A stretch of 64,000 nucleotides of DNA, taken from the NCBI RefSeq assembly GCF_032854445.1, contig NC_088302.1:37948191-38012190 (forward strand). Reading direction: 5' to 3'. Source of the DNA: Liolophura sinensis (lineage: Eukaryota; Mollusca; Polyplacophora; Chitonida; Chitonidae). Below, piece after piece: positions 5,101-62,195 of this stretch (the first letter of the stretch is position 1; each line of letters starts with the position of its first letter). The notes beneath the pieces were generated by a model. That model saw only the letters and a program-made list of their open reading frames with translations. It was not told where the DNA came from and ran no database searches. The position numbers and the translations under genes are program-made.

Positions 5101-8100
5101 TTGCTGGAGAAGATTATTGAAACAGACAAGGTGGGGAGTACTGAGTGACCCTGAAACAAGGGGTGACTTTATAAATCGTTTATTTATTTATTTATTTGAT
5201 TGGAGTTTCAGGCTGTGCTGAAGAATATTTCACGTATACAAGAGCAGCCAGCTTTATCATGGCAGGAGACCCACCAACATCCACAAGTTACCTGCAGGCC
5301 TGGAGAGGAAGGCCTGGAGAGGAAGCCAGCATGAGCTTAATTAAACATTTGGTGCCTCTTTAATTAAGAGAAGGAAAGAGAATATGGCCTGCTACTCTGT
5401 GCATGCTTGATGTGTATCAGTGATTGCATGATTCATTTATGTGAAGAGTGGAAGTAAACTAACTGCTGAACTGTTGAAACAACTAACCATTATTTGACTT
5501 GTGTTGTTATTTTATACACTTGTGTTATCCCATATGATTTTTTAATCCTCCACCCCATAAAACTGACCGCTGTTTTATATACAGCTGTAAGTGAAAACTT
5601 CTTGAATGTGGTGTTGAACAGCCACCAAGTAAATAAATGAATAAACCCATAAATCTGACTGCTGCTGTGTAAATAAATTATTCTGAGTTATGGTGTAAAA
5701 TGCATATTAAACTAATAATAAATGAATAAGTAAGTGCCAAAATATCAAAAATAATCTGAATATCACAATTTTTCCTGCACAGAAACAGAAAGAGCCTGCA
5801 GGTTATGAGGTTCCAGGTACAAAGGATGATGAGATGTCACAGCCTATCCTGGCCTTGCGTCATTCCCTGCCCCGTCTTACCACAGTGGGAGAGGAGGTAC
5901 TGGCAAGATGGCAGGATGATGGCTGGTACTACCTAGGTAAGCCCCACACGCTCGTGAGAATAAAATGTCAAGGCTGCTTGCAGTGTTAAATGTATTAAAA
6001 TGACATTTCCATAAGTGATACCGTGACGGAGAGCTTACCTCTTACCTTTTAGTGACTTTCGTCATAAATCTCATACCATTATGTGAGTATTATTGTTTTG
6101 AAAGTGGCCTATGTTTGTGGGAATCTTGAGTTTACCTCCCTTGCCATAGTAAACATTTGATTGTGTAAGATTAAACTCAAAGCTTATGTGTGACCAGTCT
6201 TACGGAAATTTGATCACTTTTATTGTATTTATTTATTTTTTTATTTTAGCCAAGGCCTAACCACTGGGCATTTTATTCATGTGATTGACCATGTTTTTCT
6301 CTAGATTACCAGGATTGTCTCCCTTTGATATTAGAAGGCCATGCTGTAGTAATAGTCCTTACCCATTCATCTGGCAGAAAATGTCACACACTGTCATATT
6401 TTATGAAATATAAATGAAAGCATCACAAAGTTCTATAAACAAAGAGAGAAAGACAGTGTATGGTCCGGATTGTTGCGTCTGGTGTGAATAGATCTTTAAG
6501 GGACTAATTTCTTGATTCTTTTGGTAGGTACCCTTGTGCGCCCTGAGGGGGACTACTCTTACGTGATCAAGGACTGTGGGGGCGCTGAGGAGATAGTATG
6601 GAGAGAGGACATCATCACAGACTCTGATTTGTGGAAACAGACGACCATGGACAAGGTACTCGCACGTTGTCATGTGAAGTATGGTATGCTCCAACCAGCT
6701 AGCAGGCAATTTCACTCAGCTTCCTTTTAGTCAGAAGGTGTCTGTAGTCTAGTGGTTGATTTTCAAGTGCTAGGATAAATAAGGAGTGAGTTGATAAATG
6801 GACTTGCACAGGGAATGTGTAGTTTGTCCTGTTTTCAGTGTTCTAGGTGGCCTCAAGTAGTGGTATGAAAAGCTCAACAACAATCATATGTCCTTGTTCC
6901 TTACATCACATGCGTCGCTGTCTGGCTTTCGCTTTAAACCACTGCCACTGATAGCAAATTTTGTAGAGATATGTTGAACAACGCCGAGGTCACTGTGGTC
7001 ACAGTGATGAGGCAGGAATTGAAGTCAGAAAATACAAACAACCCATCTCAACCTTTGTCTCTAATAATACTTTATACACGTGCATTCTTTTTTTCTAGTG
7101 TATGTACAACATGGTTCTAACAAAACCTGAAACAATTTTATTGAAGATTGATGATTAATTACTCCTGTGGGAGGAGACACGTGATGAGGTTAAGCCTAAA
7201 CAAGCCTATATGCATCTAACAGGCTCCAAAGGTGTGAAGCGAAAGGTAGAGAATGGCGCATGCGCTGTAAGGAGTATGTCGTATGGCTGTTTGTGCAGTC
7301 CAGCATTTATTGAAGAGTACTTGCTTTTCACCACGATATATTCACCATATCTGTACGTCACATGTGGGAATGCTCATGAGTAAAATGCCAAAGGTCAGTA
7401 GGTTATGGCTGGCACTCTCGTTTCCTCCACCCATTAAAGTGGCTGCCAACTGCAGTCAGTTAAAGGGCAAAATTTAAAGGAATAGCTATAGGCATATCTT
7501 TTTCACAGGTGTTTTTTTTTTTTTTTTTGACTTTTTGAAGGAAATTTAAATTGCTGACAAAATAATCTTATTGCTGTGAAGTGAGATTTTCTATACACTT
7601 CAGAAAAAACAGAAATGTTGTTTAGTCAGTTATTTGAAACATTGAAAACATTCACCATTTAATCTGTGAAGTTCATATTTTAACAGACAGATTATCTTAT
7701 TTTTCAGAACTCTGGCAAAGTTTTGTCATTCCACTCAGAGTTAAAGGTAAGTTAGAAATCTTGTTTCACAGCTGTGCGAAACTTCAGAATGAAGCTAAAT
7801 AGTGATCAAGTTTTACATCTGACTTTCACATGTTGCAGACTTCATCAAAAGTGGTGGCCCTGCACCCCGAGTTTTCCTTCAGCTATGCCCCTGCCACTCT
7901 CCTGGAGGCCGCCACAGACAGCGCTGTGTCCCTGCAGTTCTATGATGGGGTACAGGCCAAAGTAGACCTTGAGAACGTCTACTACCTGCCTCCAGAGAAG
8001 TTCACGACAGACGTGAACTACATTAAAAAACAGGAGGATTCTAAGATCAACAAAGTTGTGATTGCCCGAAATGATAACACTGGGCTGTATGAAGAAGGTG

Positions 8101-11100
8101 AGTGTACAGAGTTAGTCTGAATGTGGATGCTTCGTGTTTAGACAAAACACTTATACAGTGACTCTGTATGAGGAAGGTGAGTGTACAGAGTTAGTCTGAA
8201 TGTGGATGCATCATGTTTAGACAAAACACTTATACAGTGACTCTGTATGAGGAAGGTGAGTGTACAGAGTTAGTCTGACTGTGGATGCTTCATGTTTAGA
8301 CAAAACACTTATACAGTGACTCTGTATGAGGAAGGTGAGTGCACAGAGTTAGTCTGAATGTGGATGCATCATGTTTAAACAAAGCACTTATACAGTGACT
8401 GTATGAGGAAGGTGAGTGTACAGAGTTAGTCTGACTGTGGATGCTTCATGTTTAGACAAAACACTTATAAAGTGACTCTGTATGAGGAAGGTGAGTGTAC
8501 AGAGTTAGTCTGACTGTGGATGCTTCATGTTTAGACAAAACACTTATACAGTGACTCTGTATGAGGAAGGTGAGTGTACAGAGTTAGTCTGAATGTGGAT
8601 GCTTCATGTTTAGACAAAACACTTATACAGTGACTCTGTATGAGGAAGATGAGTGTATGAAGTTAGTCTGACTGTGGATGCATCATGTTTAAACAAAACA
8701 CATACAGTGACTCTGTATGAGGAAGGTGAGTGTACAGAGTTAGTCTGAATGTGGATGCATCATGTTTAAACAAAACACATACAGTGACTCTGTATGAGGA
8801 AGGTGAGTGTACAGAGTTAGTCTGAATGTGGATGCTTCATGTTTAGACAAAACACTTATACAGTGACTGTATGAGGAAGGTGAGTGTACAGAGTTAGTCT
8901 GAATGTGGATGCTTCATGTTTAGACAAAACACTTATACAGTGACTGTATGAGGAAGGTGAGTGTACAGAGTTAGTCTGAATGTGGATGCATCATGTTTAA
9001 ACAAAACACATACAGTGACTCTGTATGAGGAAGGTGAGTGTACAGAGTTAGTCTGAATGTGGATGCATCATGTTTAGACAAAACACTTATACAGTGACTC
9101 TGTATGAGGAAGGTGAGTGCACAGAGTTAGTCTGAATGTGGATGCTTCATGTTTAGACAAAACACTTATACAGTGACTCTGTATGAGGAAGGTGAGTGCA
9201 CAGAGTTAGTCTGAATGTGGATGCTTCATGTTTAGACAAAACACTTATACAGTGACTCTGTATGAGGAAGGTGAGTGTACAGAGTTAGTCTGAATGTGGA
9301 TGCATCATGTTTAGACAAAACACATACAGTGACTCTGTATGAGGAAGGTGAGTGTACAGAGTTAGTCTGAATGTGGATGCTTCATGTTTAGACAAAACAC
9401 ATACAGTGACTCTGTATGAGGAAGGTGAGTGTACAGAGTTAGTCTGACTGTGGATGCTTCATGTTTAGACAAAACACTTATACAGTGACTCTGTATGAGG
9501 AAGGTGAGTGTACAGAGTTAGTCTGAATGTGGATGCTTCATGTTTAGACAAAACACTTATACAGTGACTCTGTATGAGGAAGGTGAGTGTACAGAGTTAG
9601 TCTGAATGTGGATGCTTCATGTTTAGACAAAACACTTATACAGTGACTCTGTATGAGGAAGGTGAGTGTACAGAGTTAGTCTGAATGTGGATGCATCATG
9701 TTTAGACAAAACACTTATACAGTGACTCCTCCCTTAACTTTACAAAGTTGGTATTTATTTATTTTACTTCATTTTGTTTGTGATAAACATTTGTTTAAAA
9801 AGAAATGATTATAGTGATTATAAACATCACTATTTTTTTATGCTCCAGTACTTGCACTATGGAATTACTTTATATGACCGAAAATTTCATCCGTGCCTAA
9901 GGTAGATGTTTTGTTCTAAGAATGGTATTTAAGGTTTGTTTGGGAATCAGTATCAAATGTGATATTTGACGACCATTATTTGCCTTTAAAAATGCACTTT
10001 TCAGAGCAAATTTTAGGGCAGATATGACAATAGACCTTCAAAAGATTCACACACTTTTTTTCATGATTAAAATATTAATGTGACGTGAAAGTCTAAGTTA
10101 TTTCAATTTAGAAGCAGAAGACAACATTTAAGTGTGAAAAATTTAATCACTGCACAGAACATGTGGATATCCAGCATTGGAAAATTGATAACTAATTTGT
10201 TTAGTTTCTAAATTTCTAGATTAGCTCATGGATAATTGTACAGAATTTGTTGTAACATTGCAAATGTTCCACTTCAGGAAAAATCCTTGAAAAGCTGGGT
10301 GACAGCAGTCAGTTCGTGATCCAAGGTTCAGATAGATGGGTACAGAAAAGTATGTTTATTTTTGGTGATTTCACAAAACGCTATCGCCTTTATGTTGGTG
10401 ACCGTGTGCTAGCACTGGCTAACCCCAGAAGATGTATCTACAAGCCGGGCCGGATTGAAGCAGTTCACGGCGATCATTTTACAGTTCGCTTTTATGATAA
10501 CACAGTGTAAGTATCCTGTTTAATGAATAAGATGCTTGCCTTGCAGGCATTGGACGGGGAAATACCCTAATTCCTCAACCTTTTCGCATATGACAGTGTA
10601 ACTTTCAGTGCAATTTATACACATTTTCAATTTGATTTTGGAGACAAAACTACATTGGTTAGATTTAGCCCGTTTCAGGGCTTCGCAAAAAGTATGAAAT
10701 TTATCAGTCTACACGAAAGCGTGCCCTCAGAATTTGCTTGAATAAACACCATTGCACGTGAAAAGGTTGAAGAATTACAGTACAAGCATATTTGTACATT
10801 TTTCCACTCTCGCTGTTCTGTTGGACTGGGTGATACTACGAAATTCACTATACTTTGTGGTTAAATGTTAAATGTGGGAGCATTCATCAGCACCTTGCCA
10901 AAGGCTGGTAAAATATCAAGGCAAACAGGTTGTCTCCACCAGCCATAACACTGACCACAGCCATACAGGTGATAAATTCTAACTTGCTCACTCAGTGTCG
11001 TTGATTCAAGTAATACAGTAATTATGTTTTCTTGTTTTATACCTAAATAAATCTCTTCTGCTAAGATCTGTCCATGTCCTGACAGTCACGACTTTCTCTT

Positions 11101-11197
11101 TGACAGGTTGAGTCCCATCAAGGAGGAGAACATGTACTGGCTGTCAGAAACCTTCTACGATGACGCTGTCCGTACAATCCACGCTAAGACATCATGA
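2127..11197 (+). CDS. DUF4537 / Tudor-like protein, C-terminal part (VWA3B-like), 5' incomplete
   Basis: Eleven exons with GT-AG borders join in one frame to a TGA: 2127-2150 (candidate), 2474-2565, 3465-3520, 4045-4124, 5050-5130, 5783-5936, 6528-6655, 7708-7746, 7839-8097, 10278-10506 and 11107-11197. Together they give 410 residues plus stop, and every junction phase matches. The product has a short acidic/coiled-coil segment (ELRDQNTKLVRLKKKI), then three Tudor-like repeats. These start around VLARWQDDGWYYLGTL, VVALHPEFSFSYAP and VLALANPRRCIYKPGR, and each is followed by strand-like residues such as VSLQFYDG or TVRFYDN. This is the layout of the DUF4537 region found in VWA3B and C11orf16. 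No VWA domain is present, so the N-terminal part should lie upstream of the window. Molecular function is unknown. Assignment to VWA3B rather than C11orf16-like is inference. Intron 8098-10277 is largely a minisatellite made of copies of the exon 3' end. Confidence 0.8.
2474..2565 (+). CDS. Exon of VWA3B-like gene
   Basis: The acceptor is GACAG and the donor is GTAAGT. The exon encodes VSTMRSYMVKVTKARFELCC and onward, and ends in phase 2. It joins exon 3465-3520 through a split serine codon. It is the first exon in the window with clearly protein-like content. Confidence 0.65.
2639..3262 (-). CDS. Unrecognised 207-codon ORF inside an intron
   Basis: A single open frame of 207 codons runs antisense to the VWA3B-like gene, between exons 2474-2565 and 3465-3520. 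It starts MTDRTLLSSSGWYHKV and is rich in Cys, Leu and Tyr, with mixed hydrophobic and polar residues. I recognise no domain, signal peptide or clear membrane segment. Its length is unusual for random AT-rich DNA, but there is no supporting splice or promoter signal. It may be a chance ORF, a decayed gene or mobile-element fragment, or a small nested gene. Confidence 0.2.
   Translation of the reverse strand: MTDRTLLSSSGWYHKVQSIKGPIQENCVMLAGSALYCLVRPNEVMNLLCSATSGTLKLCSTVREPSYSVPCNTVNYDDLQPVVGFKRTSHMSLGLVFTYETPAGDCPEWYFWRSAEYPKIYAALHGAVHTNDLHSFISFFLTSVQYCFGKIWLLTLLHQIYVCQVMAGGRDSDTIIIFHQVISPRYILGKHGFLCKTVTLRLALWHL
3755..3975 (+). mobile_element. Degraded tRNA-derived SINE copy
   Basis: The layout matches the copy at 13290-13515: a tRNA-like head, a middle with TTCACCCATATAAACCTGACC, then GTCTTGAATATGGTG and an AATCAATAAAATA tail. 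It lies in an intron of the VWA3B-like gene, just before exon 4045-4124. Confidence 0.6.
5179..5335 (-). mobile_element. SINE fragment (3' half, reverse)
   Basis: It begins with TTTATTTATTTATTTGATTG and continues with GTGCTGAAGAATATTTCACG. These are the reverse complement of the tail (AAATATTCTTGAGTACGGCG) shared by the other SINE copies in this window. It is intronic, directly after exon 5050-5130. Confidence 0.7.
5525..5645 (+). mobile_element. SINE tail fragment
   Basis: Contains CCACCCCATAAAACTGACCG, then GTAAGTGAAAACTTCTTGAA and an AAGTAAATAAATGAATAAA tail, matching the 3' part of the SINE family on the plus strand. Confidence 0.55.
7839..8097 (+). CDS. Exon encoding the second Tudor-like repeat of the VWA3B-like protein
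   Basis: The acceptor is TTGCAG and the donor is GAAGAAG/GTGAGT. It encodes TSSKVVALHPEFSFSYAP, then VSLQFYDG and ending TGLYEE, in phase 1. Its last bases and the donor are the seed of the 79-bp array that follows. Confidence 0.8.
8098..9730. repeat. Minisatellite, 79-bp unit, ~20 copies, seeded at a splice donor
   Basis: The unit starts with the donor GTGAGTGTACAG and ends with CTGTATGAGGAAG, a slightly diverged copy of the exon end CTGTATGAAGAAG. Units are mostly 79 bp, with shorter 74-77-bp variants. Nearly every copy keeps GAGGAAG/GTGAGT; one near 8647 is mutated to GATGAGT. The array fills about three quarters of the intron between exons 7839-8097 and 10278-10506. Confidence 0.95.
10278..10506 (+). 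CDS. Exon encoding the third Tudor-like repeat of the VWA3B-like protein
   Basis: The acceptor is CTTCAG and the donor is GTAAGT. It encodes GKILEKLGDSSQFVIQGSD and onward, then YVGDRVLALANPRRCIYKPG and VRFYDNTV. Phases 1 and 2 fit both neighbours. Confidence 0.8.
11107..11197 (+). CDS. Terminal coding exon of the VWA3B-like gene
   Basis: The acceptor is TGACAG. It encodes LSPIKEENMYWLSETFYDD through HAKTS and a TGA at 11195-11197. The frame is continuous with exon 10278-10506 through a split valine codon. Confidence 0.8.
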
Positions 11198-13205
11198 AGT
11201 CGTGCTAGTGCCTATTATGCTTCACCAGGATGTTCTTGCTAGCTTCCGCTTGAAAAAACGCCTTCCTTGATGTTAGTCTGTGTAGTCAGTAGCTTTGAGA
11301 AAAATTTTATCCTTGCATTAGTGTGTATCAAGGAAAAGTTTGATAGAACGTCATACTCACATTACTAAGGCAACTTGTGCAAATGATGTAAAGCAGATGT
11401 GTGTGTTCTGTCAGTCAGCCTTTTAAACCAGTGAATGGAGATATAGCATGTAAATAATTTGGTGTGTATCTACGGTAGCCTATTTTCATTTGAAATGGCT
11501 TTCAAATTTGTGAACATCTCTTAATTTAGAATTAGCATAGCTAACATATGGGAAACAGTAACAGATGGTCAAAAATGTAACTGTTAGAATGTGAATTGGC
11601 TGCTATCATGAAAACATAGCAATGTACTTCTGACAGCTCCTTCCTTACCCTGCAGACTCAGAATTCTGTAAAACTTATTATCCTTTTAAGTTATGAGGCT
11701 TCTAAACACACTTTATTTAAAAAGAAGTGTTTTCAAGATTTAAATGTGAAACAGTACAGGACAGTCCAATGTGGGGGAGTGGGCTCTAGTGTAGTGGTTT
11801 AAGACCGTTTGCCCTTTAATTGGTTTGACGTGAGGTGCAGGTTCAAATCCCGCTATGGACAGGGAATTTATAGATTCCCCTAACTCTCACTGCTTACAAG
11901 GCCTTAGGGACAGTGATCAATGGAGTATTTCTGTTTGTGCATTCTAACATGTCTCCCACCGAGGTGATCTGCATATTTGTCACGTTAAAAATTGTCAGTA
12001 ACTTACCGTCGGTGGTTTATGCAGCTCAGTATGGGTTTCCTCCACCATAAAACCAACTGCCATAAAACTGTCTAAGCAAAACTTTCTTCACTAAGCAATA
12101 ATCAAGTAAATAAATGAATTAACACCCATTGGCACACAGAATACATGCATTGAGGGCTTTTTTATTTTACAAAGCATTCATTCAGGGCATTTTGTTAGAC
12201 AAAGGTATCTAGATCAGTTTTTCATAGACTTAATTGATGAGTTAACATGACCTAATGGCATTTTATTTCGGTATAATGGTTTCAGGGAAAAGTTACAAAA
12301 AGGCGGACTAGAATTTGAATGCAGACTTAGTAATTATTTCTCCTTACTGAGGGCTTGTGCTTCTTGTATTAAGTCTGATAGGATTTTTAACAGTTTATCC
12401 CAATGCAACGGATCTCTTCAACAGGAATTTTTCAGTATGTTATCATGCATGGTTATGGGAAGTATTTTCATATCAGATTTCCGTCCAGTGTCGATATTTG
12501 AAGTTTTATTTTGTTAGTAAATGTGAACTTAATTAGTGTGCTAGATCACGTGTTGTTGTTTACAAATTACACATGTATTTTTAATCTGTTAAAGTTTTTT
12601 AATAATAATTTTTCTATATACATATATTTTAGATACGATAGTAACTTGCAAATCGTCTACATTGGTACCAATATCCCATATTTTGATGTTCTCGTCTTTA
12701 GAATTTTTGTCATTTTAGGATGTTTTTAGGCCATAGGTCTTGACAAAATCTGGTTTAAGTTAAAGGCCATAGGTACATTTGTTGTTTTGAATATGTAAAA
12801 GTATATAATTGTATGCATGAGGTGAAATGGTCATTTCATACGAGTGTCTTTCTACATGTGACAAAGTAAAAGCTGTATATTTATTTTGCCTAATATTTTG
12901 TCCATGACTGCTGCTTTGTGCAGGATTCTGAGAATTCTATTGATCTTGGAAAGGTGTTGAGAGGTTTGTCTTTGATGTAGCTTGAAACCCTACTAGAAAG
13001 ATGTATGCTTGAACATCAAAAGTAATACTTTATGACCTTTATTTGCCATAACAGTGCACTTTTGGAGGCAAGTAGGCTTTATGTATATGTATGCCAGTGT
13101 TTTCTGGTCGTCATGACTGCAAGTATGGCACTTGTGTGATCAGTCGTGTCAACGCTTGTGAACTGTGATACTTACATAGGCAAAATAAATCATCCATGAA
13201 GTTGT
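11198..13205 (+). other. Probable 3' UTR of the VWA3B-like gene
   Basis: No coding signal follows the stop codon. The best poly(A) signal is AATAAA at 13184-13189. A SINE (11780-12125) lies within this region, so the real 3' end could be earlier. Confidence 0.4.
11780..12125 (+). mobile_element. tRNA-derived SINE
   Basis: An A-box-like stretch (TAGTGTAGTGGTTTAAGACC) is followed by a B box (GGTTCAAATCCC), the internal RNA polymerase III promoter of tRNA-derived SINEs. The 3' part has TTTCCTCCACCATAAAACC and ends AATCAAGTAAATAAATGAA. The tRNA fold is not complete, so I call a SINE rather than a tRNA gene. Confidence 0.7.
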
Positions 13206-13289
13206 TGAATAGGGATTTTGTTGATAACTTCTCACCAGATTTCTCTCATAATCGTTGTAAACTGGCTAGTTGTAGTACACTTTACTTGA

Positions 13290-13515
13290 CTGCACAGGTC
13301 CCGCTGGCTGTCTGAGACATTCAGGCCCTTGACCAATGAAGTCCTGGGTTCAAATCCACCTCTTGACTGTTTTGGCTGCAATTTTAGGTCAGTTTGTCAG
13401 GTACCATCATAGATCAATGGTTTACTCATGTTTTCTCCACCCATAATCCTGGCCATCGTAATAGAAGAGAAAAAGTCTTGAGCACAATGTTAAACCCAAA
13501 TCAAATAAATCCTTC
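13290..13515 (+). mobile_element. tRNA-derived SINE
   Basis: The head carries a B box (GGGTTCAAATCC). The middle has TTTTCTCCACCCATAATCCT, and the tail has AGTCTTGAGCACAATGTTAA and AATCAAATAAAT. Same family as 3755-3975. Confidence 0.7.
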
Positions 13516-13944
13516 TCCTCACTGCCAGTGTATCTCCCAAGTGCTACACAGAAAAACAATGACATTTCAACATTTCAGCTGTGTTAATTTTGGTCTCTGA
13601 GAGAACTGAATATTAAAATCAATTACCAGAAGTAGTATCTTAATAATAACATACTCTGAAGTTGAAAATAGCATTTTGTTGGTATATCATAAAATGCAGT
13701 TCCACATTTGTGTTTCTATGCTTTTACATTATGCTAAGTTTACCATTAAATCAGCAAAACATGATAATAAACTTTGGTAGCAGGTTGGAATCCAGTACCT
13801 ACTTGTGTCAGAAAAATGTCTGGGATAAAACATAAGAGTGGGAAAAGTTTCCTCTGCCTTTATTTTTCATTAAGTTGGAAAATTCCTGATTGTGGAGGAA
13901 AGCACAATGCAGAAAATCAGTTAAGTAGCTTGAGCCGAGTCAGG

Positions 13945-14062
13945 AGGGTGGTCTGGTTACTGGTAAGGTTAGCCAGGTTCCTTCACCTGTGAGCCAGACA
14001 GCTATCATGCAGGCAAAATATCTGAATATGGCGTCAAACTCCAATGAAACAAATAGGCCAAT
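13945..14062 (+). mobile_element. SINE tail fragment
   Basis: Contains CAGGTTCCTTCACCTGTGAG, AAAATATCTGAATATGGCGT and CCAATGAAACAAAT, a diverged copy of the common SINE 3' part. Confidence 0.45.
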
Positions 14063-14221
14063 CCAATGCACAACCTGTAGAAAAATTGTGGGATTTGAGT
14101 TGAGTTTAGGCCTCGTGATGAAAGTGAAATTTTGGTTTTAAGTACAGGAGTAATACCACAAGTTAAAGACAGCTTTGTTATCAGTGTAGGAAACCACCAA
14201 GACCACATTCACTCATTAACA

Positions 14222-18800: not shown

Positions 18801-19092
18801 GCCGCCTGCTGCTGAATGCTTCCAATGCTACTGACTGCTGAACTACCACTAGCCTCAACTTGACTAACAGTGTCTGCTTCTACAGATGTTGAGGGTAGCA
18901 CAGCTGATGTGCTCTGAGTGCTATCTGCCTGCTCTACTTTGGTGGTAACTGGAACATTCTCTGCCTCCTCTGTACCTTCTAATACGAGTTTCAATGGCTG
19001 GCTCTCTTCTGCTGAACTGGCCGATACTTCCTGTACATCTGATCCCTGAACAATAAATGTTTGGGCTGTGAAAGTCTCCGTCTGGCCGTCTT
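15869..19092 (-). CDS. Large second coding exon of the zinc-finger gene (AT hooks, eight fingers)
   Basis: Starts after a CTTTCCAAAAG acceptor with EDGQTETFTAQTFIVQ and runs 1,074 codons to a TAA at 15869-15871. The ATG upstream at 19144 lies in the intron and is not the start. Finger cysteine pairs occur in the order CPFC, CQDC, CPIC, CPHC, CNTC, CSVC, CADC, CDLC. Confidence 0.92.
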
Positions 19093-20167: not shown

Positions 20168-20174
20168 TTTTACA

Positions 20175-27873: not shown

Positions 27874-42824
<14,951 letters not shown>

Positions 42825-44888: not shown

Positions 44889-46870
44889 GTGTCACCACTG
44901 TTACATGATGTCACGTTGTCTGTGCTGAACTGTATTGTCATTCCTCAGCCAGTGTTCCTTCTCAGCCACAGCGTCACCCCTCAGCCTGTCACTTACCCCC
45001 CCAGCCACAGTGTCACCCTCAGCCGATCACCCCTCAGCCACAGTGTCGCCCCTCATCTACAGTGTCACCCCTCAGCCAGTGTTCCTTCTCAGCCACAGCG
45101 TCACCCCTCAGCCTGTCACCTACCCCTAGCCACAGTGTCACCCCTCAGCCAATCACCCCTTAGCCACAGTGTCGCCCCTCAGCTACAGTGTCAACCCTCA
45201 GCCAGTGTTCCTTCTCAGCCACAGCGTCACCCCTCAGCCTGTCACCTACCCCCAGCCACAGTGTCACCCCTCAGCCAATCACCCCTCAGCCATAGTGTCG
45301 CCCCTCAGCTACAGTGTCACCCTCAGCCGATCACCCCTCAGCCACAGTGTCGCCCCTCAGCTACAGTGTCATCCCTCAGCCAGTGTTCCTTCTCAGCCAC
45401 AGCGTCACCCCTCAGCCTGTCACCTACCCCTAGCCACAGTGTCACCCCTCAGCCAATCACCCCTCAGCCACAGTGTCGCCCCTCAGCTACAGTGTCACCC
45501 CTCAGCCAGTGTTCCTTCTCAGCCACAGCGTCACCCCTCAGCCTGTCACCTACCCCTAGCCACAGTGTCACCCCTCAGCCAATCACCCCTCAGCTACACT
45601 GTCACTCCTCAGCCGATCACCCCTCAGCCACAGCGTCACCCCTCAGCCTGTCACCTACCCCCAGCCACAGTGTCACCCCTCAGCCAATCACCCCTCAGCC
45701 ACAGTGTCACCCCTCAGCCAATCACCCCTCAGCCACAGTGTCACCCCTCAGCCGATCATCCCTCAGCCACAGTGTCACCCCTCATCCACAGTTTTGCCCC
45801 TTAGGCACAAAGTCATCCCTTAACCACAGTGTAGCCCATTAGCCACAGTGTCACCCCTCAGCCAGTGTTACATGCCCCTCAGCCAAAATGTCACTCCTCA
45901 GCCGCAGTATCACCTCTCAGCCACATTATTACCCCTTGGCCACAGTGTCTCCCCTCAATCACAGTGTCTCACCTCAGACACACTGTCACCCTTTTGAAAG
46001 AATCTCACCCATTTGACAGCAGCAGCAGTGTCACCCCTCAGCCAGTATCACCCCTCCACCATTGTCGCCTTTCAGCCACAGTATCCCTTCTCAGTCACAG
46101 TGTCACCCCTCAGCCGCAGGGTAACCCCTTGGCCAAAGTTTCACCCCTTGGCCAAAATGTCGCACTTTTGACACGGTGTCGTCCCTCAGTCAACATCACT
46201 CCACAGCCGTAATGTCGCCCCTAGTTGCAATGTGACCCTTCCGTCACAGGATCAGTTCTCAGCTACAGTGTCACCCCTCAGCTACAGTGTCACCCATCAG
46301 CCACAGTTTTGCCCCTTAGGCACAATGTCACCCCTTAACCACAGTGTCGCCCATTAGCCACAGTGTCACCCCTCAGCCAGTGTCACATGCTCTCAGCCAC
46401 AGTGTTGCCCCTCAGCCAAAATGACACTCCTCAGCTGTAGTGTCTCCCCTCAATCACAGTGTCTCATCTCATACACACTGTCGCCCTTTTGAAAGAATCT
46501 CACCCTTTTGACACATTGTCACCCTTTTGACACAGTGTCACCCCTTAGTTACAGTATCACCCATCAGCCACAATGTCACCCCTTAGCTGCAATGTTGCCC
46601 CTCTGCCCAAATGTTACACCTCGGCTGCAACATTACCCCTAAGCAGCAGTGTCACCCCCCAGCCATTGTCACCCTTCAGCCGCAGTATCGCTTCTCAGCC
46701 ATAGCATCACCTCTCAATCAGTTTCACCTCTCAGCCACAGTGTCATAACTCAGTCACAGTGTCACCCCTCAGGTACAGTGTCACCCCTCAACCACAAGAT
46801 CACCCCTCGGCCACAACATCACCCCTCAGCCAGTGTCTCCCCTCAGCCATAGTGTCACTCCTGGAATACC
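44889..46870. repeat. Large degenerate tandem array (CAGCCACAGTGTCACC type)
   Basis: About 2 kb built from an ~18-21-bp motif, CCTCAGCCACAGTGTCACCC, and variants. From about 44945 to 45600 a higher-order period of ~126 bp is visible: CAGCCAGTGTTCC recurs near 44948, 45073, 45199, 45378 and 45504. Beyond 45800 the order decays. ORFs of 317 and 211 codons in two frames follow from the absence of stops in the unit and encode only Ser/Pro/Gln/His/Val repeats. It lies upstream of the first GSTCD coding exon. Confidence 0.95.
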
Positions 46871-46984
46871 ATGTCCCCTCCCCCTCCCCCTCCCCACACA
46901 CACTGACAGCAGAACTCTTGAACCTTACCACAGGAATTTTGATGTTACTTTAGCTGAATGTTAAAACAATTGTTCTCCTGAACT

Positions 46985-47085: not shown

Positions 47086-47322
47086 TAATTCTATGTAATT
47101 TGACCCTGCTAATAATAATTGTTCACACCGTGCACTTGCCTATTTGTCCAAAACAAACTGATTTATTTATTTGATTGATGTTTCATACTGTCAAAAACGA
47201 ATTGAAGATCATTATTGTAATATTACTGTTGAAAATACTTTTATCATGAAATGATTATCAATGTTTATGAATAAAATAATTGAGCATTTTCATTAGTTTA
47301 AAAAAAAACTTCTGTGTTTTAG

Positions 47323-53700: not shown

Positions 53701-56700
53701 TCCTCAACCGTACATGGAAAGGCCTGGCAGCCACCTGTGAATGGTCATGGATTTCCCCGGCCTGGTTTTGTCTCACCATAATACTGGTTTCTGTCATATA
53801 AGTGAAGTATTATTGAGTATGATGTGAAACACCAATAGAATGAATACAACTGAAATATTTTGGGGTACCATGTTGGGGCCTCTTGCACAAAGAAATTGTA
53901 GCCTAACTTGATGGTGGCATGGGAAGATATGTTTTTGACATGTCGCCATGTTAGCCACAATGAACAACAGTTACAATCAACAATCACGTAAATAATTAAA
54001 TGTATGTTGCTGCTCAACATTATATATATGTATATGTATGTATTACTGGTCATTGTAGCTTTGTCAACAGACTAGTTAATAAACTTGAAATTTTGCATTC
54101 ACAGCCACCACAGTAAAGGACACTGTAGACCACTCAAACCCGACGTGGCAAATGCGCTTCAAAAAGTCCAGGTAATAAGCATCAGAAAAAAAACACAAGC
54201 TACAGGGCAATTTCAAAAAGTGTCTGAAACATGTCTCTTCTAATATATGAATATTCTTATGTGTATTTCTGAACAACAGAAAACTGGAATTTGTCAAAAT
54301 TTTAATTATAGCCTGCACTGTTTTCATTTATCACAGAACTTTTTTTAATAAGAAATTAGCATAAAATCTTTGAATCCCCATGTTTCCATGACAAAATGAT
54401 AGAGCCATGGTTTAATCTGATGCATCTGTCTTGTATTCCGTTTTCAGTCTGCTAACATCAGCCCCAGGGTAGGAGAACACCCCTGTGGTGAGGACATTCA
54501 TCTTGACTGGTTAGCCTTCCCAAAAGAGGTTTATCCATTTAACGGTATGCATCTCATACCCAAAACTCTTTCTGTTGTGATCTTAAGAGCCAAGTCAGTC
54601 ACAGTTAGAAGCTGTTTGTATCCTCTTTATCTCAGTATGCATTATTGTAGCCTCACCTGGGATATAGTATGGAGGGATTTTAAGCTCTGGCTTACCGGCT
54701 TGTCACCGACAAGGGCTTAACCCTTATCAGAACACAGCTCCCTTTCCCTGACAGGTCATGCATTTTTTTGTACTTCAGTAACCTCAGGTAGAGTAATAAG
54801 CAGGGCATGCACGGACAAGCCATACCATATTCCAGATGTCAGGCCAGGATAGGAAGCATCATAATCGTCTGGACACTTTAATGTTACGCATTTTACCGTT
54901 TTTTTTTTTTCATTGGAAATTGCTTTCTGATCTAATTTACTTAAATTTGTAAAGAATAATCCAACCAAATGTATGCTTCTTTTTCAATATTTCTTTAACT
55001 GACATTACAATTTCAGTTTCCTTCCAGAGCAGGATGAACAAATCAAAAATAAAATGTTAGTTTATTTTATTTTTCAGACAGTTTACCCAAGTCCAAGGTT
55101 CAAAGTAAATGTGAACAGCTGGAGAATCTTGTCAGTGCTGTGGTGAAGATTGCTCAGCCAGGTCATGTGATCGTAGACTTTTGTTCTGGAGGGGTAACAC
55201 TTGTGGCTTGTTTTCCTTTGTTACAATTCTTGACATCTATGTAAACTGTTACATGTATTTTGACATTTTGAATCCAAATGCTGACTGTTTGGTTTACCAG
55301 TTTGAGCTACCACTGCAACAAAATCATGCAGTCTCATTGCTCAGGGACACTTTGCCTGTTAATTTCAACCAGAAATGTGTTTGGTTCTTAAATATATATG
55401 GTGGTTTTCAAGGGGCTGTATCTATTATATTTCAACAATAAACCTGGCTAACATTGTATATGTGGTGTTCTGGAGTAAGTATATCTCAGTGAAAAGTAAT
55501 GTTATGTGTAAGACTGTCAGTATGGTTAAGTAATATTTTGGAAGCTCACCATTAGAGTTGTTCCCCTTCGTCTAGATCAGCCTTTACAGTAGTTTTGATC
55601 GCTTGTCTTTGTGTGTATCAGGTCACTTTAGTTTGATTTTTAAAAGCTGTGACAAGTTATAATGCTACACAATAGAGTGAAATCCTAAAACTGATAAAGT
55701 GATGCTATCACATTGATGAAAATGAACGTGAATTATTGTGCAGTATACTCCACAACAGTATACCTATTCCACTGTGAAGACAGCCATTTTGTAAGGTACC
55801 CTTCTCAGTACATTTGCATATTGTAAAGTGTGTTGGATTATATGATAAAATGATATCACTCTTTTGTTTATGATGGAATTCTCACTTGAGCTGTAATGTA
55901 CTCTGATTTGCCATTTCAGGGTCATTTGGGTATTGTCATTGCCTACTTGCTACCAGATTGTGCCAAGTAAGTTCACCATTTGCTTTACACATTCAAATAG
56001 GTTTGTTTTATTTGATTTATTTATCTGATGGTGTTTTACACCATACTCAAGAGTATTTCATGTATACGGCAGCGGTCAGCATTATGTTGGCAGGAAATGT
56101 GGCAGAGCCCGGGGGAACCCCACGACAATCCACAGGTTGCTGACAGACCTCCCCACATACGACGGAGAGGAAGCCAGCAAGGGCTAGACTTCAACTCACA
56201 TGACCACATTGGCGAGAGGCTCCTGGATCATTGCGCAAGCTGGCATGCTAACCACCTCAGCCACAGAGGCTCCCCGAATAGGTTTGTAATTGATTCCATG
56301 TGTAAGTCACTGTAAGTATACTGTTGAAACAGTACAAATGACATGTGAAACTTTCATTTGGTTTGATGTCTGTTGTCACCAGCATGGTGTTCCAGTGAGG
56401 CAGCTATGTAAAATCTCGGCATTGAGACCAGTCTGTTACAAGGACACATCAGTATTACCAAAGTATGGTTACAAGAAGAAAGATGTTTAAACAATCAGTG
56501 TCACTATCTATAATATTTTAGGTGTATCTCATCGAGAATAAAGAAGAGTCCTGTCATGAGAGCAAAGAAGAGGGGTTGATGACCTTAGATTGAACAATGT
56601 CATATTATTCCAGGTATGTGTAAGCTGCATTATTCCAGGTAATGGTGGATAGGCACATTGTCCACATTTAGTATAAGCTGCATTATTCCAGTAATGGTGG

Positions 56701-59700
56701 ATAGGCACATTGTCCACATTTAGTGTAAGCTGCATTATTCCAGATAATGGTGGATATGCACATTGTCTGCATTTAGTATAAGCTGCATTATTCCAGGTAA
56801 TGGTGGATAGGCACATTGTCTGCATTTAGTGTAAGCTGCATTATTCCATGTAATGGTGGGTAGGCACATTGTCCACATTTAGTATAAGCTTCATTATTCC
56901 AGGTAATGGTGGATAGGTACATTGTCCATATTTAATATAAGCTGCATTTATTCCATGTAATGGTGGATATGCACATTGTCCACATTTAGTGTAAGGTGCA
57001 GTATTCTGGGTAATGGTGGATATGCACATTGTCTACATTTAGTGTTAGATGCATTATTCCAGTCAGTGGTGGATTAGCATATTCTAAATATTTACAGACG
57101 GTGACATTCACCTTTTCAATCTTTGATTGCTTCCTTGATGTGATATAACTTTTAACTGCCCAGAGAAAGTCAGTTGTTTTTTTTTTTTTTAAATTCCTTA
57201 TATCTCACTCTCTGCCCTGTAGTGACAGCCTTTTTGTGATTGTTTCCAGTGTAACATGGATTATTTTAACGGACAGTTTGACATAGGTGTGTGTCTACAT
57301 GGCTGTGGCGTGGCTACTGACATGGTGCTACAGAAGTGTCTGGACAATCAGGCTGCCTTCGTCGTCTGCCCGTGTTGTTATGGGAAAGTCCAGAACACCC
57401 ACAACATCACTTACCCCAGGAGTGACAGGTTCAGAGAGGCTGGGCTCACAGCAAAGGTAAGCTTTCAGAGAGGCTCAGCTCACAGCAAAGGTAAGCATCA
57501 AGAGAGGCTCAACTCACCATAGAAGTAAGTGTTCAAAGCAGCTCAGCTCACAGCAAAGGTGAGCATGAAGAGAGGCTCAGCTCACAGCAAAGATGAGCAT
57601 CAAGAAAGGCTCAACTCACAGCAGAGGTAAGTGTTCAAAGAGGCTCAGCTCACAGCAAAGGTGAGCATCAAAAGAGGCTCAGCTCACAGCAAAGGTGAGT
57701 GTTCAAAGAGGCTCAACTCACAGCAAAGGTGAGCATCAAGAGAGGTTCAACTCACAGCAAAGGTGAGTATCATGAGAGGCTCAGCTCACAGCACTGGTAA
57801 GCATAAAGAGAGGCTCAGCACAGAGCAAAGTTAAGTGTTCAGAGATGCTCCGTCCTCAACGATGTGTGTACGTGTTTGCATGTATTGTAGTCCTCACAAA
57901 AAGCATACACTGTTAAGTCTGATCCTTTCCATTAACAGGAGTACATTATTTTGGGCCATGCTGCTGATCAAACTGAAGTTGGCATTGAACTAGAAGAACA
58001 AGGTAAGTCTGTTCAGGTTATAGATTTGGGTTGGGTGGTATTGAGCTCATTTTAGAATTGATTGCTTAAGGATTGAAAATAGTAATTTTGGCACTTACCA
58101 CTTAACATGGATTAAAAGTAAGGACAACTATTTTTTTTTTTGCCTTTTTTAAGTGAGTGATAATACACCTAACGCAGTACATAAACAAATACTTGGCGCT
58201 GCCTAGTTGACTAGTTTGACTAAAAATATCTAGATGGACTCTTGAGCAGTTCAGCATGTGAAGTGTATAGCCTTCAGTAGATTTCAGTATCCGCCTCCCT
58301 CTCAGCTACTTGAATAACCTTTTTGCACAACCAGTTTCAGTGATACAATGTATTAAGGGGATTTACTGGGATTCTGCCTTCGCCTTGGGTAAAAGACATC
58401 TTGTATAATTATAGGTGTACAACATGGCTAGCTTTTGCTTGTTTTCTTTTTTGATTCTTCACATAAAAATCACAAAAAAATTAGAAATCTGTTGCTTCAG
58501 AGGCTAAGACAGTGAACATTCATTTCCAGTATAATTCTTCTCAGAGTTATCTTTCCTTTGAATGAGATCTGAGTACGGATCAGTTTGGTTTTTTGTGTGA
58601 TGAAAGGTGCTTCAGAGGGGCAAGAGTGTCTAGCAATTTTGGTACTAATGGTAGTGCCCTTTTGGTAATACTAGAAGTACCTGATTTATGTGGGGGGGGG
58701 GATTGTGACAAGATGCTGTTTTTTTTTTTTTTTTAATATCAACGAATTTTCACTGTGTAAACCAAAGCTTATAATACACCTTAATATGAAATAGGCAAAG
58801 CCTAAGACTGATTGCATTGTGTAGACCTACATATACATCTGTACAGTTTTAGGCAAATTAGTAAGTAAAATATTATCTACATTTACAGTAGCTGAAATAA
58901 TAAACAAAGAATTTGTCAAATATGTATTTATGTTGTTGCATGTAGTGCATTTCTCCAGTCTCTAATTTGTATGTTCTTAAAACACTGTTTGTGTTTAGAG
59001 AACAGAGGCTGTTATCAAGCGAAGAGTCTTTCACTTATAATTGACTTTCCCATCCACCTCACACCCTCCTACAGCATGGACAAGTAAAATGGGGCTGACA
59101 GGCGGAAAAATAATAATTTGAGAAGTCATTGATTTATTTATTTGATTGATGCTTTATGCCGTACTCAAGAATATTTCCCTTTATATGGCTAGAAACCAGG
59201 GAAAGCCCCGGGGAAACCCACGACCAAGCAAGGGTTGCCTTCCCACATGCGATCGGAGAGGTAGAGAAGTCACTGAAATGTGATGCTAGATTTGTAATGA
59301 ATGTATGGCATGTATGATATAAATGGAGTAAAAACATAGATCCTTTGCTTTGAAATAATGATTTGTTGCAGGCTGTTAGCTCATACCAGTAACACCCATG
59401 TTAAGCTAACACTTCCTGTATAGATCAATCTGGGTGGTCTTGTGTCTTAAACTTGTGTGGCTGGTACTCTTTTCTGGCTTATAGCCTTATACATCAACAA
59501 TGATTCCTGCCCAGGTATGTAGCTCAGACAGGAAACTGTGATATCCTTAATTTGAACATTAATATTCATTTTTAGAAACAGTGAATGAAATTGAAGAATG
59601 TGCTGCAAATTGTGAAAAAGTCTTTCTAATAGACTGGATTGGTAGGTAACGGCTTTAAAGATATAATTCACAGTACAAAGTGACAGGTCGGCTATCTGGG

Positions 59701-61180
59701 GAGCGTGGTGAATTGATTTCTCCAGGTTCTATATATCTGGTTTCATTTAACCATAAAATTGATCGACACCATGTAAGTGAGAAATTTTTATGTACAGCAT
59801 AAAAAAAATTGCGTAATTAGTTAAAAAAGAATTTAACAAGAGGTACCACATAAATTCGCTGCATGTGAAAAATATATGCATTTGACAAAAAAGTTTATAG
59901 TGAGAACATTGCAACCTCTGACCACGCTGACCATGTGCCATAAACCAGAGATACATATATACACTTCAGAAAGATTTTATTATTTAAGTTATAACTACTT
60001 GTTATATATAATTATTTGTTTTTTGATTTCAAAATCTGCAATGTATATGGCCCCTGAAATTAAACACAAAAAAAGAAACAGGAAGTAGGAGATGAAAACA
60101 AGTTGGTTAGAAAATGAAATAGATGTATATTATTTATACTGATTATATAATGGATGTATTTGATTTATTTACTCATTTGATGAGAGTGTTACGCTGTACT
60201 GAAGGTTGTTTGACTACGACAATGACCTGCTTTATGACGGCAGAAAACCGTTTGTCTGAAAGAAGACATTTGTGTGAAATTATATTGAATTTCAGTTAGT
60301 GTTTCACTATAAAAAACAATGTAATGTAAGTATTCAATATAGAAAAAAGACAAAACTTAAACATGTTATGACTGGCCTATACATGTAGAAATGGGGACAA
60401 TAAGATCTCTTTCATGAACTGCATTTCACCTCCTGTCTGAACTATATTATCAGATGTCATTTACAGTTGTATACCTGAATGTACTCCTGTCTCTACTTCT
60501 TCCGGATGACTGTTTACTTATTTTATCAATTAAGTGTGATGTAGTTGAAATAAATTGCTAATGAAATATAAGGACATTGACAACACAACATAGTAAAAGT
60601 AAGTAAACAATTTGATTTCTGTTCAGATCGCTGATTTGCACGTGATTGCTCGGATATTTCGATGCTGAACTTTTTCTTGACTTCGTTTTGGGCTCTTACG
60701 CCAACTTTAACTAAAAGTGGCCTAGAAAGAAAACACCACATGGTGATGGTAAATAATTCACCTTTAAACTTAACTGCCTGACTAATTATATTTAAATTCA
60801 TTTTGTCTTTGTCTTTGGAAATGTGAGCTGTCAAATTTAGAAGAAAAACAGACATTCTGACAGCACAACCCAGGGCCTTTATTTTATCAGTGAAATGGAA
60901 CCATCCCAGTGTCCATGACAAGGATGGCAACTGTGTGTAGATTGTCAGTTTGAACATACTTTGCTCACCATTGTTTTAGTGTTAAAGTCTTTGGAGGTAT
61001 GTCAGAATAAATAAATAATTCATCATTACAGGAAAGCACTGTAGTAACCTGGTGGACACAGACAGAGGACTTCTCTTCCAGCAACACGGCTACTCCGTAA
61101 CCCTGTGCTCACTCCAGCCAGTCACATGTACCACCAAGAACAACCTGCTGATTGGTGTCCCACCTGGGAAGTCACGATGA
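47341..61180 (+). CDS. GSTCD: GSTCD orthologue: GST C-terminal and methyltransferase-like protein
   Basis: Exons: 47341-47709, 50272-50307, 50545-50666, 50915-51851, 52490-52710, 54105-54171, 54448-54544, 55078-55193, 55920-55966, 56522-56613, 57250-57456, 57939-58002, 59576-59641 (optional) and 61032-61180. The GST C-terminal-like part has EGIKLTLADLLLFVFIHFFL and ILQWYSHMTSLPRVRAVAED. The C-terminal part is Rossmann methyltransferase-like: DFCSGGGHLGI (SAM-binding loop), LHGCGVATDMV, VVCPCCYG and a final NNLLIGVP. These match vertebrate GSTCD in order. The substrate is unknown to me. At ~840-862 residues it exceeds human GSTCD (~630), mainly because exon 50915-51851 carries a Lys-rich/acidic insert (KKKHKKKRKGKRKERLE). 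The frame is broken around exons 55920-55966 and 56522-56613 by three apparent 1-base indels. If these are real, the product stops before the rest of the methyltransferase fold. Confidence 0.88.
47915..48078 (+). mobile_element. SINE, 5'-truncated
   Basis: GGAAGGTCTGCCAGCAACCT, GATGGTCGTGGGTTTCCCCG and GAAATATTCTTGAGTACGGC, ending AATCAAATAAATAAATAAAT. It is very close to the family consensus seen in this window, so probably a young copy. It lies in GSTCD intron 1. Confidence 0.9.
48440..48606 (+). mobile_element. SINE, 5'-truncated, with internal change
   Basis: Matches the copy at 47915-48078 from GTCAGCAACCTGTGGATGG to the AATCAAATAAAT tail. It has extra bases (TATAAATCGTGG) in the 3' part. 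Confidence 0.88.
49563..49806 (+). mobile_element. Full-length SINE with target-site duplication
   Basis: It has the tRNA-like head (TCCGTGGCTCACTTGGTTAG), a B box (GTGAGTTCAAGTCC), the conserved body and an AAATAAATAAAC tail. It is flanked by CTAACATGAGA at 49552-49562 and 49807-49817. Confidence 0.92.
50070..50240 (+). mobile_element. SINE with internal deletion
   Basis: The head (GGCCTTGGTGGCCTAGTGAT) joins directly to the body (TTCTGCCAGCAACCTGCAGA) and tail (TTCTTGAGTATGG, AATAAAATAAATG). About 90 bases between are missing. Confidence 0.82.
50272..50307 (+). CDS. GSTCD: GSTCD 36-nt exon
   Basis: TTTTTCAG acceptor, GTGAGA donor, 12 codons (GFRGGTLKSCAE), phase 0 at both ends. It matches the conserved GF...LK.CAEVS.WTRLCE block that continues in the next exon. 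Confidence 0.75.
50545..50666 (+). CDS. GSTCD: GSTCD exon (WTRLCE block)
   Basis: Acceptor TTGCAG and donor GTAAGC, ending in phase 2. It encodes VSSWTRLCEVEIPGAVCG through HDQKNL and joins exon 50915-51851 through a split Trp codon. Confidence 0.8.
50915..51851 (+). CDS. GSTCD: GSTCD large exon with Lys-rich insert and GST-C start
   Basis: 937 nt, acceptor TCTTAG, donor GTGAGC. It starts CLINTSKAVVRNRKDG and includes IERLEKHLRTPVLLHNDD (conserved block) and a basic stretch KKKHKKKRKGKRKERLE that could be a nuclear localisation signal. A Ser/Asp-rich low-complexity region follows, then LTLADLLLFVFIHFFL. The low-complexity insert makes this protein longer than vertebrate relatives. Confidence 0.88.
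52490..52710 (+). CDS. GSTCD: GSTCD exon (end of GST-C region)
   Basis: Acceptor AACAG and donor GTGAGG, phase 2 end. It encodes VSVQSSGFSVQKCCPAILQW, SLPRVRAVAEDCGM and a variable tail. Confidence 0.8.
53598..53850 (+). mobile_element. Full-length SINE, older copy
   Basis: Head GGGCCTCCATGGCTGAAGTG, B box GCGAGTTCAAGCTC, and tail GAAGTATTATTGAGTATGAT. Flanks TACAGTTGAAAT and TACAACTGAAAT look like a diverged target-site duplication. Confidence 0.85.
54105..54544 (+). CDS. GSTCD: Two GSTCD exons, 54105-54171 and 54448-54544
   Basis: The first (CACAG acceptor, GTAATA donor) encodes HHSKGHCRPLKPDVANALQK. The second (TTTCAG acceptor, GTATGC donor) encodes SANISPRVGEHPCGEDIHLD and WLAFPKEVYPFN, similar to the DW..LP segment before the methyltransferase domain. 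Phases fit. Confidence 0.75.
55078..55193 (+). CDS. GSTCD: GSTCD exon with SAM-binding motif I start
   Basis: Acceptor TTTTCAG and donor GTAACA. It encodes KCEQLENLVSAVVKIAQPGH and VIVDFCSGG, the first half of the Gly-rich SAM loop that continues as GHLGI in exon 55920-55966. Confidence 0.85.
55920..56613 (+). CDS. GSTCD: GSTCD exons 55920-55966 and 56522-56613 with disrupted frame
   Basis: Exon 55920-55966 encodes GHLGIVIAYLLPDCA and is 47 nt; the conserved phase-0 boundary predicts 48. Exon 56522-56613 is 92 nt, where 90 is expected. Homologous pieces appear in three frames in turn: VYLIENKE, then SPVMRAKKR, then VDDLRLNNVILFQ. This implies one missing base at the first donor, one extra base in GAAGAG and one extra G in AGGGG. 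The net shift gives a stop after KKRG. Sequencing or assembly error is the likeliest cause because all other exons are intact; a real lesion is possible. Confidence 0.7.
56007..56276 (-). mobile_element. Full-length SINE with 11-bp target-site duplication
   Basis: Complete reverse-oriented copy. It runs from the A/T tail (ATTTGATTTATTTATCTGAT on the plus strand) to the tRNA-like head (CTCAGCCACAGAGGCTCCCC). It is flanked by identical 11-bp repeats AATAGGTTTGT at 55996-56006 and 56277-56287, the mark of LINE-assisted retroposition. It sits in a GSTCD intron. Confidence 0.92.
56614..57065. repeat. Minisatellite, ~53-bp unit, ~8-9 copies, seeded at a splice donor
   Basis: Each unit has TGCATTATTCCAG/GTAATGG, which copies the end of GSTCD exon 56522-56613 (TATTATTCCAG/GTATG), followed by GATAGGCACATTGTCCACA and TTTAGTATAAGC. 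Some copies have lost one G at the junction. The array starts right at the exon boundary and stays in the intron. Confidence 0.93.
57250..57456 (+). CDS. GSTCD: GSTCD exon with CPCCYG motif
   Basis: Acceptor TTTCCAG and donor GTAAGC, 69 codons, phase 0-0. It encodes CNMDYFNGQFDIGVCLHGCG and VATDMVLQKC, then AAFVVCPCCYGKVQNT. This is the most conserved part of the GSTCD methyltransferase-like fold. Confidence 0.9.
57457..57850. repeat. Minisatellite, 34-bp unit, ~11-12 copies, seeded at a splice donor
   Basis: The unit GTAAGC..TCAGAGAGG..CTCACAGCAAAG copies the last ~27 bases of GSTCD exon 57250-57456 plus the first bases of its donor. Most copies keep CAGCAAAG/GTRAGY. It lies at the start of the intron, directly after the exon. 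Confidence 0.94.
57939..58002 (+). CDS. GSTCD: GSTCD exon (GHAADQT block)
   Basis: Acceptor TTAACAG and donor GTAAGT, phase 1 end. It encodes EYIILGHAADQTEVGIELEE, corresponding to the FADQT block of vertebrate GSTCD. Confidence 0.85.
59131..59268 (-). mobile_element. SINE fragment (reverse)
   Basis: TTTATTTATTTGATTGATGC, CCGTACTCAAGAATATTTCC and CCCACATGCGATCGGAGAGG are the reverse complement of the SINE body and tail. It lies in a GSTCD intron. Confidence 0.85.
59576..59641 (+). CDS. GSTCD: Optional 66-nt GSTCD exon
   Basis: TTTTTAG acceptor and GTAGGT donor, phase 1-1, 22 codons reading TVNEIEECAANCEKVFLIDW. It can be included or skipped without changing the frame, and vertebrate GSTCD has no obvious counterpart as I remember it. 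It is a candidate cassette exon. Confidence 0.45.
60160..60240 (-). mobile_element. SINE tail fragment (reverse, degraded)
   Basis: TTTGATTTATTTACTCATTT, GTTACGCTGTACTGAAGG and a weak match to the body. Confidence 0.5.
61032..61180 (+). CDS. GSTCD: GSTCD terminal coding exon
   Basis: Acceptor ATTACAG. It encodes KHCSNLVDTDRGLLFQQHGY, SVTLCSLQPVTCTT, NNLLIGVPPGKSR and a TGA at 61178-61180. The GK.C..LVD.DR and NN..IGVP blocks match the GSTCD C-terminus. Its last ~80 bases are the first unit of the array that follows. Confidence 0.88.
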
Positions 61181-62195
61181 CAACAGTAACACTAGAACGC
61201 CTGTGCTCACTCCAGCCAGTCATGTGTACCAGTACCACCAGAAACAATTTGCTAACTGGTGTCCCACCTGGGAAGTCACGATGACAACAGTAACACTAGA
61301 ACACCTGTACTCACTCCAGCCAGTCACATGTACAACCAAGAACAACCTGCTGATTGGTGTCCCACCTGGGAAGTCACGATGACAACAGTAACACTAGAAC
61401 ACCTGTGCTCACTCCAGCCAGTCATGTGTACCAGTACCACCAGAAACAATGTGCTAACTGGTGTCCCACTTAGGAAGTCACGATGACAACAGTAACACTA
61501 GAACACCTGTACTCACTCCAGCCAGTCACATGTACCACCAAGAACAACCTGCTGATTGGTGTCCCACCTGGGAAGTCACGATGACAACAGTAACACTAGA
61601 ACACCTGTGCTCACTCCAGCCAGTCATGTGTACCAGTACCACCAGAAACAATGTGCTAACTGGTGTCCCACTTAGGAAGTCACGATGACAACAGTAACAC
61701 TAGAACACCTGTACTCACTCCAGCCAGTCACATGTACCACCAAGAACAACCTGCTGATTGGTGTCCCACCTGGGAAGTCACGATGACAACAGTAACACTA
61801 GAACACCTGTGCTCACTCCAGCCAGTCACATGTACCACCAAGAACAACCTGCTGATTGGTGTCCCACCTGGGAAGTCACGATGACAACAGTAACACTAGA
61901 ACACCCAGTCATGTGTACAACCTGCTAACTGGAGTCCCACCTGGGAAGTCATGATGACTACAGTAACACTAGAACACCTGTGCTCATTACAGCCAGTCAC
62001 GTGTACCACCAAGCACAACCTGCTGATGGGTGTCCCACCTAAGAAGTCACAATGACTACAGTAACACCAGAAGACCTGTGCTCACTACAGCCAGTCACGT
62101 GTACCACCAAGCACAACCTGCTGATTGGTGTCCCACCTAGGAAGTCACAATGGCTACAGTAACACCAGAAGACCTGTGCTCATAACAGCCTCAGT
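61100..62195. repeat. Minisatellite of the GSTCD C-terminal codons and stop, ~11 copies
   Basis: The ~95-105-bp unit contains TGTGCTCACTCCAGCCAGTC, GTGTCCCACCTGGGAAGTCA and CGATGACAACAG. These are the last codons and the stop of GSTCD plus a short 3' UTR piece. Two subtypes (ACCACCAAGAACAACC and CAGTACCACCAGAAACA) alternate, giving a 202-bp dimer period from about 61100 to 61700. The last copies are more diverged. Confidence 0.95.

Follow-up and report, generated by a model that had tools for sequence, protein, structure and literature searches.

The window analyzed here, a 64,000-bp stretch of the chiton Liolophura sinensis (G000:C8:37948191-38012190, in a 609-Mb genome of 632 contigs), contains genes in which the ends of coding exons are repeated in tandem arrays. 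Such arrays are carried by four donors (5' splice sites) and one stop codon, apparently belonging to two genes that lie in the window and its left flank. The 80-bp and 79-bp arrays appear to lie in one of these, a gene with a Pfam DUF4537 domain. The other plus-strand gene is presumably GSTCD-like. The features are listed below; the array junctions were read from the sequence, several exon limits were set by eye, and copy numbers were taken from one haploid assembly.

1..1608, + strand: 80-bp minisatellite (TRF and sequence), about 29 copies in all; a further 785 bp of the array lie left of the window, beginning at L003:9207
2474..2565, + strand: putative exon following the 80-bp array (VSTMRSYMVKVTKARFELCCRYIRLKITEDR), an open frame between AG and GTAAGT, set by eye
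7839..8097, + strand: coding exon with Pfam DUF4537 (PF15057, 8e-12), ending ...NTGLYEEG, limits by eye
8085..9728, + strand: 79-bp minisatellite, 21 copies (TRF and sequence)
56522..56613, + strand: GSTCD-like exon ...VDDLRLNNVILFQ (sequence; limits by eye)
56618..57074, + strand: 53-bp minisatellite, 8.6 copies (TRF and sequence)
57250..57456, + strand: GSTCD-like exon with a methyltransferase domain (Pfam Methyltransf_32, 1.1e-7), ending ...FREAGLTAK
57430..57850, + strand: 34-bp minisatellite, 12.4 copies (TRF and sequence)
57939..58002, + strand: next GSTCD-like exon (...YIILGHAADQTEVGIELEEQ) (sequence; limits by eye)
61032..61180, + strand: final coding exon of the GSTCD-like gene, with its stop codon TGA at 61178-61180 (sequence; start by eye)
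61102..62190, + strand: 98/202-bp minisatellite (TRF, several overlapping rows, and sequence)

The assembly was first published as Liolophura japonica (according to excerpts of PMC11068029) and was later corrected to L. sinensis (PMC12441733). On another of its contigs, C99, seven cox1 matches, one of them shorter, lie about 15.5 kb apart, and the mitochondrial genome therefore seems to have been assembled there as a head-to-tail concatemer. The cox1 sequence can be read with the invertebrate genetic code and looks molluscan, and amphioxus was rejected as the source of the DNA.

Each of the five units includes the edge of the exon it adjoins. The 80-bp array begins at L003:9207, left of the window, within a coding exon that reads ...ILTYNNQR/GTAAGC, and its unit contains the 5' splice site AAAGG/GTAAGC. 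The 79-bp array starts 13 bp inside the exon ending at 8097, such that the unit consists of the final 13 bp of the exon, GTGAGT and intron sequence. Similarly, the 34-bp array starts 27 bp inside the exon ending at 57456, an exon with one match in the whole genome, and its unit consists of the final 27 bp of the exon followed by GTAAGC. TRF placed the start of the 53-bp array 4 bp into the intron, and the unit holds ATTATTCCAG/GT, in which ATTATTCCAG is the 3'-terminal 10 bases of the exon at 56522-56613. That exon reads VYLIENKEES, MRAKKR and VDDLRLNNVILFQ in three different frames, with two frame shifts in the assembly that may reflect assembly error, polymorphism or decay. The 98/202-bp array opens 76 bp ahead of the stop codon, which its unit contains together with the last 25 codons. 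About 80% of its own intron is filled by the 34-bp array and about 70% by the 53-bp array. TRF also reported longer periods superimposed on the units (391 bp on 79, 202 on 98, 213 on 53 and 102 on 34), as would be expected from block exchange inside arrays. Two further arrays touch no identified exon: one of 1.9 kb with a 19-bp unit (CTCAGCCACAGTGTCACCC) and higher-order periods at 44961-46862, and one of about 1.2 kb with a 69-bp unit, running from 63619 to L004:776 downstream of the GSTCD-like gene.

A preliminary description had reported four arrays, each repeating the end of the adjoining exon or coding sequence, and this core observation is sound: TRF recovered all four in the window, and we could read the junction of each from the sequence. 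A fifth, the 80-bp array at 1-1608, had been missed; its exon lies upstream of the window. The arrays had also been said to start exactly at the exon end, which is loose, as starts lie up to 76 bp inside. That the functional copy is left intact does not hold for the 53-bp case as assembled, given the three frames of its exon. Among the few exons identified in the minus-strand genes of the window, no exon-overlapping array was seen, which says little.

The units are specific to their loci. All five are mutually unrelated, except for splice-site letters common to the 80-bp and 34-bp units, whose similarity score was reached by 3 of 200 shuffles. Genome searches with the 79-, 34- and 202-bp arrays, using a search that skips very common words, listed only their own places. 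The unrelated units and these matches rule out one dispersed mobile repeat, in agreement with the preliminary description. We also considered coding repeats as a source; of 14 donor arrays, 4 have a unit length divisible by three, the share expected by chance, and we rejected this candidate.

Because the window had been chosen for its arrays, we took an independent sample of exons outside it, in the same genome, from matches to myosin heads, kinesins and SNF2 domains. The sample consisted of 190 exons (62 myosin, 90 kinesin and 38 SNF2) in 137 regions with 600-bp flanks, or 226,597 bp. Matches containing in-frame stops were excluded (myosin, 19 of 81; kinesin, 42 of 132; SNF2, 19 of 58), as was one whole-domain SNF2 match without stops, and the search scored 65 of 213 myosin candidates and 122 of 207 kinesin candidates. 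Splice sites were scored with generic weights; the donor remained uncalled in 19 of the 190 exons and the acceptor in 9. Two boundaries (the L085 donor and the L038 acceptor) were placed manually once their arrays had been seen, and the TRF score cut was moved from 100 to 90 after L075, with a score of 90, had been seen. At a score of at least 90, 74 merged TRF arrays covered 11.2% of the sampled bases, and arrays were also found free in introns of the sampled genes. In 14 random regions of the genome (26,600 bp), 4 arrays covered 2.3% of bases, a density that is lower than that of the sample but not significantly so (p-value = 0.08).

We found that arrays span both types of exon-intron boundary. 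Ten of the 171 called donors were spanned (L023, L030, L035, L075, L083, L085, L088, L117, L121 and L125, the last with two possible donors, both within the array), compared with 2.55 expected under even placement over non-coding DNA and boundaries (p-value = 0.0003; exons of one gene are not independent). Arrays spanned 5 of 181 acceptors (L038, L052, L073, L116 and L129), no significant excess over the 2.70 expected (p-value = 0.14); at L052 the array spans the acceptor by only 7 bp, and the true acceptor is uncertain. With automatic calls only, the counts were 9 of 170 donors (p-value = 0.0013) and 4 of 180 acceptors (p-value = 0.28). In the window region itself only donors and one end of a coding sequence carry arrays, and all acceptor cases come from the sample. 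The confinement to exon 3' ends that had been suggested from the window is not supported, as acceptors are spanned too, and 10 donors and 5 acceptors do not depart from an even split (p-value = 0.30). Spread in the downstream direction only, likewise proposed, holds in the window but not across the genome, which also has acceptor-spanning arrays and arrays placed upstream. The lean of the window toward exon 3' ends may reflect an approximately fourfold donor excess and, because acceptors are affected too, in part chance. Arrays at L040, L070 and L094 have an edge within tens of bases of a splice site that itself falls outside the array. The unit at L040 resembles the exon end and looks decayed; with a TRF start 51 bp after the exon match, it was not counted as a donor array.

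The donor excess, about fourfold, is real in this sample but unexplained, and with 10 spanned donors found where about 2.6 were predicted, more than tolerance may be at work at donors. One explanation would be that 5' splice sites act as a mutational hot spot, perhaps through co-transcriptional DNA damage or R-loops, and repeatedly seed tandem duplications of splice-junction DNA. Consistent with this, an excess appeared at every TRF cut tried (90, 100, 150 and 300), including 9 of 171 donors at a cut of 100 (p-value = 0.001), and donor arrays occurred in all three families, at 4 of 62 myosin, 3 of 90 kinesin and 3 of 38 SNF2 exons. The 5' edges of arrays also peaked in the last 50 bp of exons, with 9 in 8,550 bp compared with 31 in the 102,079 bp that make up the next 600 bp of intron (p-value = 0.0015). 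However, the numbers are small, and exons within a gene are not independent. Moreover, array starts are numerous in the first 150 bp of introns as well (13 in 25,650 bp), so that a broader exon-edge effect is possible; against that rate, 4.3 edges were expected and the p-value was only 0.033. Acceptors shifted in the same direction, by a smaller and non-significant amount (p-value = 0.20). Array coverage itself was lowest beside exons, at 6.6% in the first 50 bp after donors and 4.1% before acceptors; after donors it peaked at 14.9% (300-350 bp) and then fell to 11.1%, and before acceptors it climbed to 18.0%. We therefore regard a hot spot as the origin of these arrays as an unlikely, though not negligible, explanation. 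It is similarly doubtful that 5' splice-site DNA is a genome-wide hot spot of tandem duplication, running at about four times the intronic rate and leaving about one donor in 20 with a minisatellite made from its own junction.

Most of the extra donors in the arrays are intact. Copies could be counted in 11 donor arrays, where 114 of 128 downstream copies retain the GT; the per-array means of any dinucleotide would give about 112, and in these arrays we saw neither purging nor protection of extra donors. For the window arrays, the copy alignment gave 25 of 28 downstream copies for the 80-bp array, 19 of 20 for the 79-bp array, 8 of 11 for the 34-bp array, and 5 of 8 copies after the first intronic one for the 53-bp array, whose row starts from that copy. 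The alignment excluded L085 and L075 and held a row without any further copy for L030; at L083 the unit came out as 57 bp compared with 63 bp by TRF, and copy counts there are rough. L085, counted apart, kept the GT in 0 of 3 downstream copies. We also compared donor strength within arrays, again with the generic weights, and 78 of the 113 downstream donors scored reached at least the score of the first donor of their array. Half or more did so in 8 of 11 arrays, the others being L035 (1 of 16), L117 (1 of 4) and the 53-bp array (2 of 5). With so many downstream donors at least as strong, choice by position and not by strength must be assumed; the first donor, the putatively used one, would then be selected mostly by where it lies.

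Intact downstream donors, together with the donor excess, could also arise if selection kept the arrays because spare 5' splice sites help, for instance by recruiting U1 and so protecting the transcript or its splicing. Yet when set against the other 9-mers of its unit, the donor 9-mer shows no clear advantage in conservation, its mean percentile being 0.40 across 12 rows (about 0.44 once the empty L030 row is removed). In addition, L085 has lost its extra donors, acceptors carry arrays too, and further arrays lie free inside introns. We consider such selection very improbable.

The preliminary description had linked the arrays to intron gain, and we asked whether the introns that carry them are young. 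For four of the nine donor arrays that fall inside domain models, a gene of the same family elsewhere has a donor at the identical position and in the identical phase. The same is true of 60 of the 159 donors without arrays; for the nine, shifted positions gave a mean of 0.3 exact matches and a maximum of 2. Within 2 residues, the counts were 7 of 9 for array donors and 109 of 159 for the others, with 3.1 of 9 at shifted positions. Because sharing with paralogues is as frequent as for other introns, the array introns of the sample appear, as a group, no younger; judged from these positions they look as old as the rest, and nothing points to intron birth. The idea that such arrays are steps toward new introns, via tandem duplication of AGGT-bearing DNA, has been raised for the amphioxus globin mirages (in the text excerpted from PMC3087553) and for tandem genomic duplication generally (likewise from PMC3443670), and the large share of their introns filled by the 34-bp and 53-bp arrays would fit it. 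Given the paralogue positions, we give this idea very little credence, and the proposed link was not supported in the sample. Finally, an assembly artefact is scarcely conceivable, for although arrays are hard to assemble and one adjoining exon carries two frame shifts, the mean HiFi read of 8.3 kb (as given in an excerpt of PMC11068029) exceeds the arrays of the window, and the same pattern recurs at 15 sampled boundaries.

Taken together, these results lead us to favor, as the probable explanation, mirage-type arrays that form by local tandem duplication and unequal exchange and are tolerated at exon edges, with the outermost original copy still spliced. We infer both the mechanism, duplication followed by exchange, and the use of the first donor. 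A short segment that by chance spans an exon edge would be duplicated in tandem, and unequal exchange or slippage would then enlarge the duplication into an array. At a donor, the copies would fall in the intron, and the first donor, beside the true exon, would keep being used; with that donor in use, we propose, the mRNA would be unchanged and the array nearly neutral. At an acceptor, the arrangement would be mirrored and the last copy would be the one used, whereas copies made at a stop codon would turn into 3' UTR. The location of non-coding DNA would thus set the direction of spread. Local duplication with tolerance explains the anatomy of the arrays but not the donor excess. The earlier interpretation, a local process that repeatedly expands splice-junction DNA, is therefore partly supported: the arrays are independent and locally born, and donors are spanned more often than under even placement, but its restriction to exon 3' ends and to downstream spread is not upheld.

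The chiton arrays are mirages, with a unit that spans an exon-intron boundary, and they do not constitute a new type of structure. To our knowledge, mirages were previously known only from single lancelet genes; in the amphioxus Adh genes, their copy number is reportedly polymorphic. About 5% of the donors sampled in this mollusc carry mirages, which suggests that these are no lancelet peculiarity. They also provide many natural tests of how the spliceosome chooses among up to 29 near-identical donors, and if the donor excess proves to be genome-wide, it would connect splice sites with DNA instability. In a search of open-licence literature, we found no report of mirages in a mollusc, and an excerpt on abalone describes an ordinary intronic minisatellite (PMC6905558).

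As described in excerpts of two reports, amphioxus mirages are minisatellites spanning exon-intron boundaries in Adh3 and in the globins BflGb6 and BflGb9, with similar repeats in PGBD5 and TnC; they occur at donors and acceptors, have units of about 10-160 bp, carry splice signals in many copies, and are spliced regularly (PMC3087553, PMC3902484). Two haplotypes are described as well (PMC3087553, in excerpt). The chiton units likewise span boundaries, both 5' and 3', with gene-specific sequence. The differences are that the host is a mollusc rather than a cephalochordate, that arrays reach about 29 copies, that a sampled frequency can be given (donors in 10 and acceptors in 5 of 190 exons), and that the chiton arrays are described here from genomic sequence. 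The AGGT model of intron gain, as excerpted from PMC3443670, shares the tandem duplication of AG/GT-bearing DNA, but the chiton arrays lengthen existing introns. Internal tandem repeats in human segmental duplications resemble them as minisatellite expansions found partly at exon-intron boundaries; half of those, according to an excerpt of PMC2812944, lie in coding sequence and alter it, whereas the chiton copies lie outside the true exon end.
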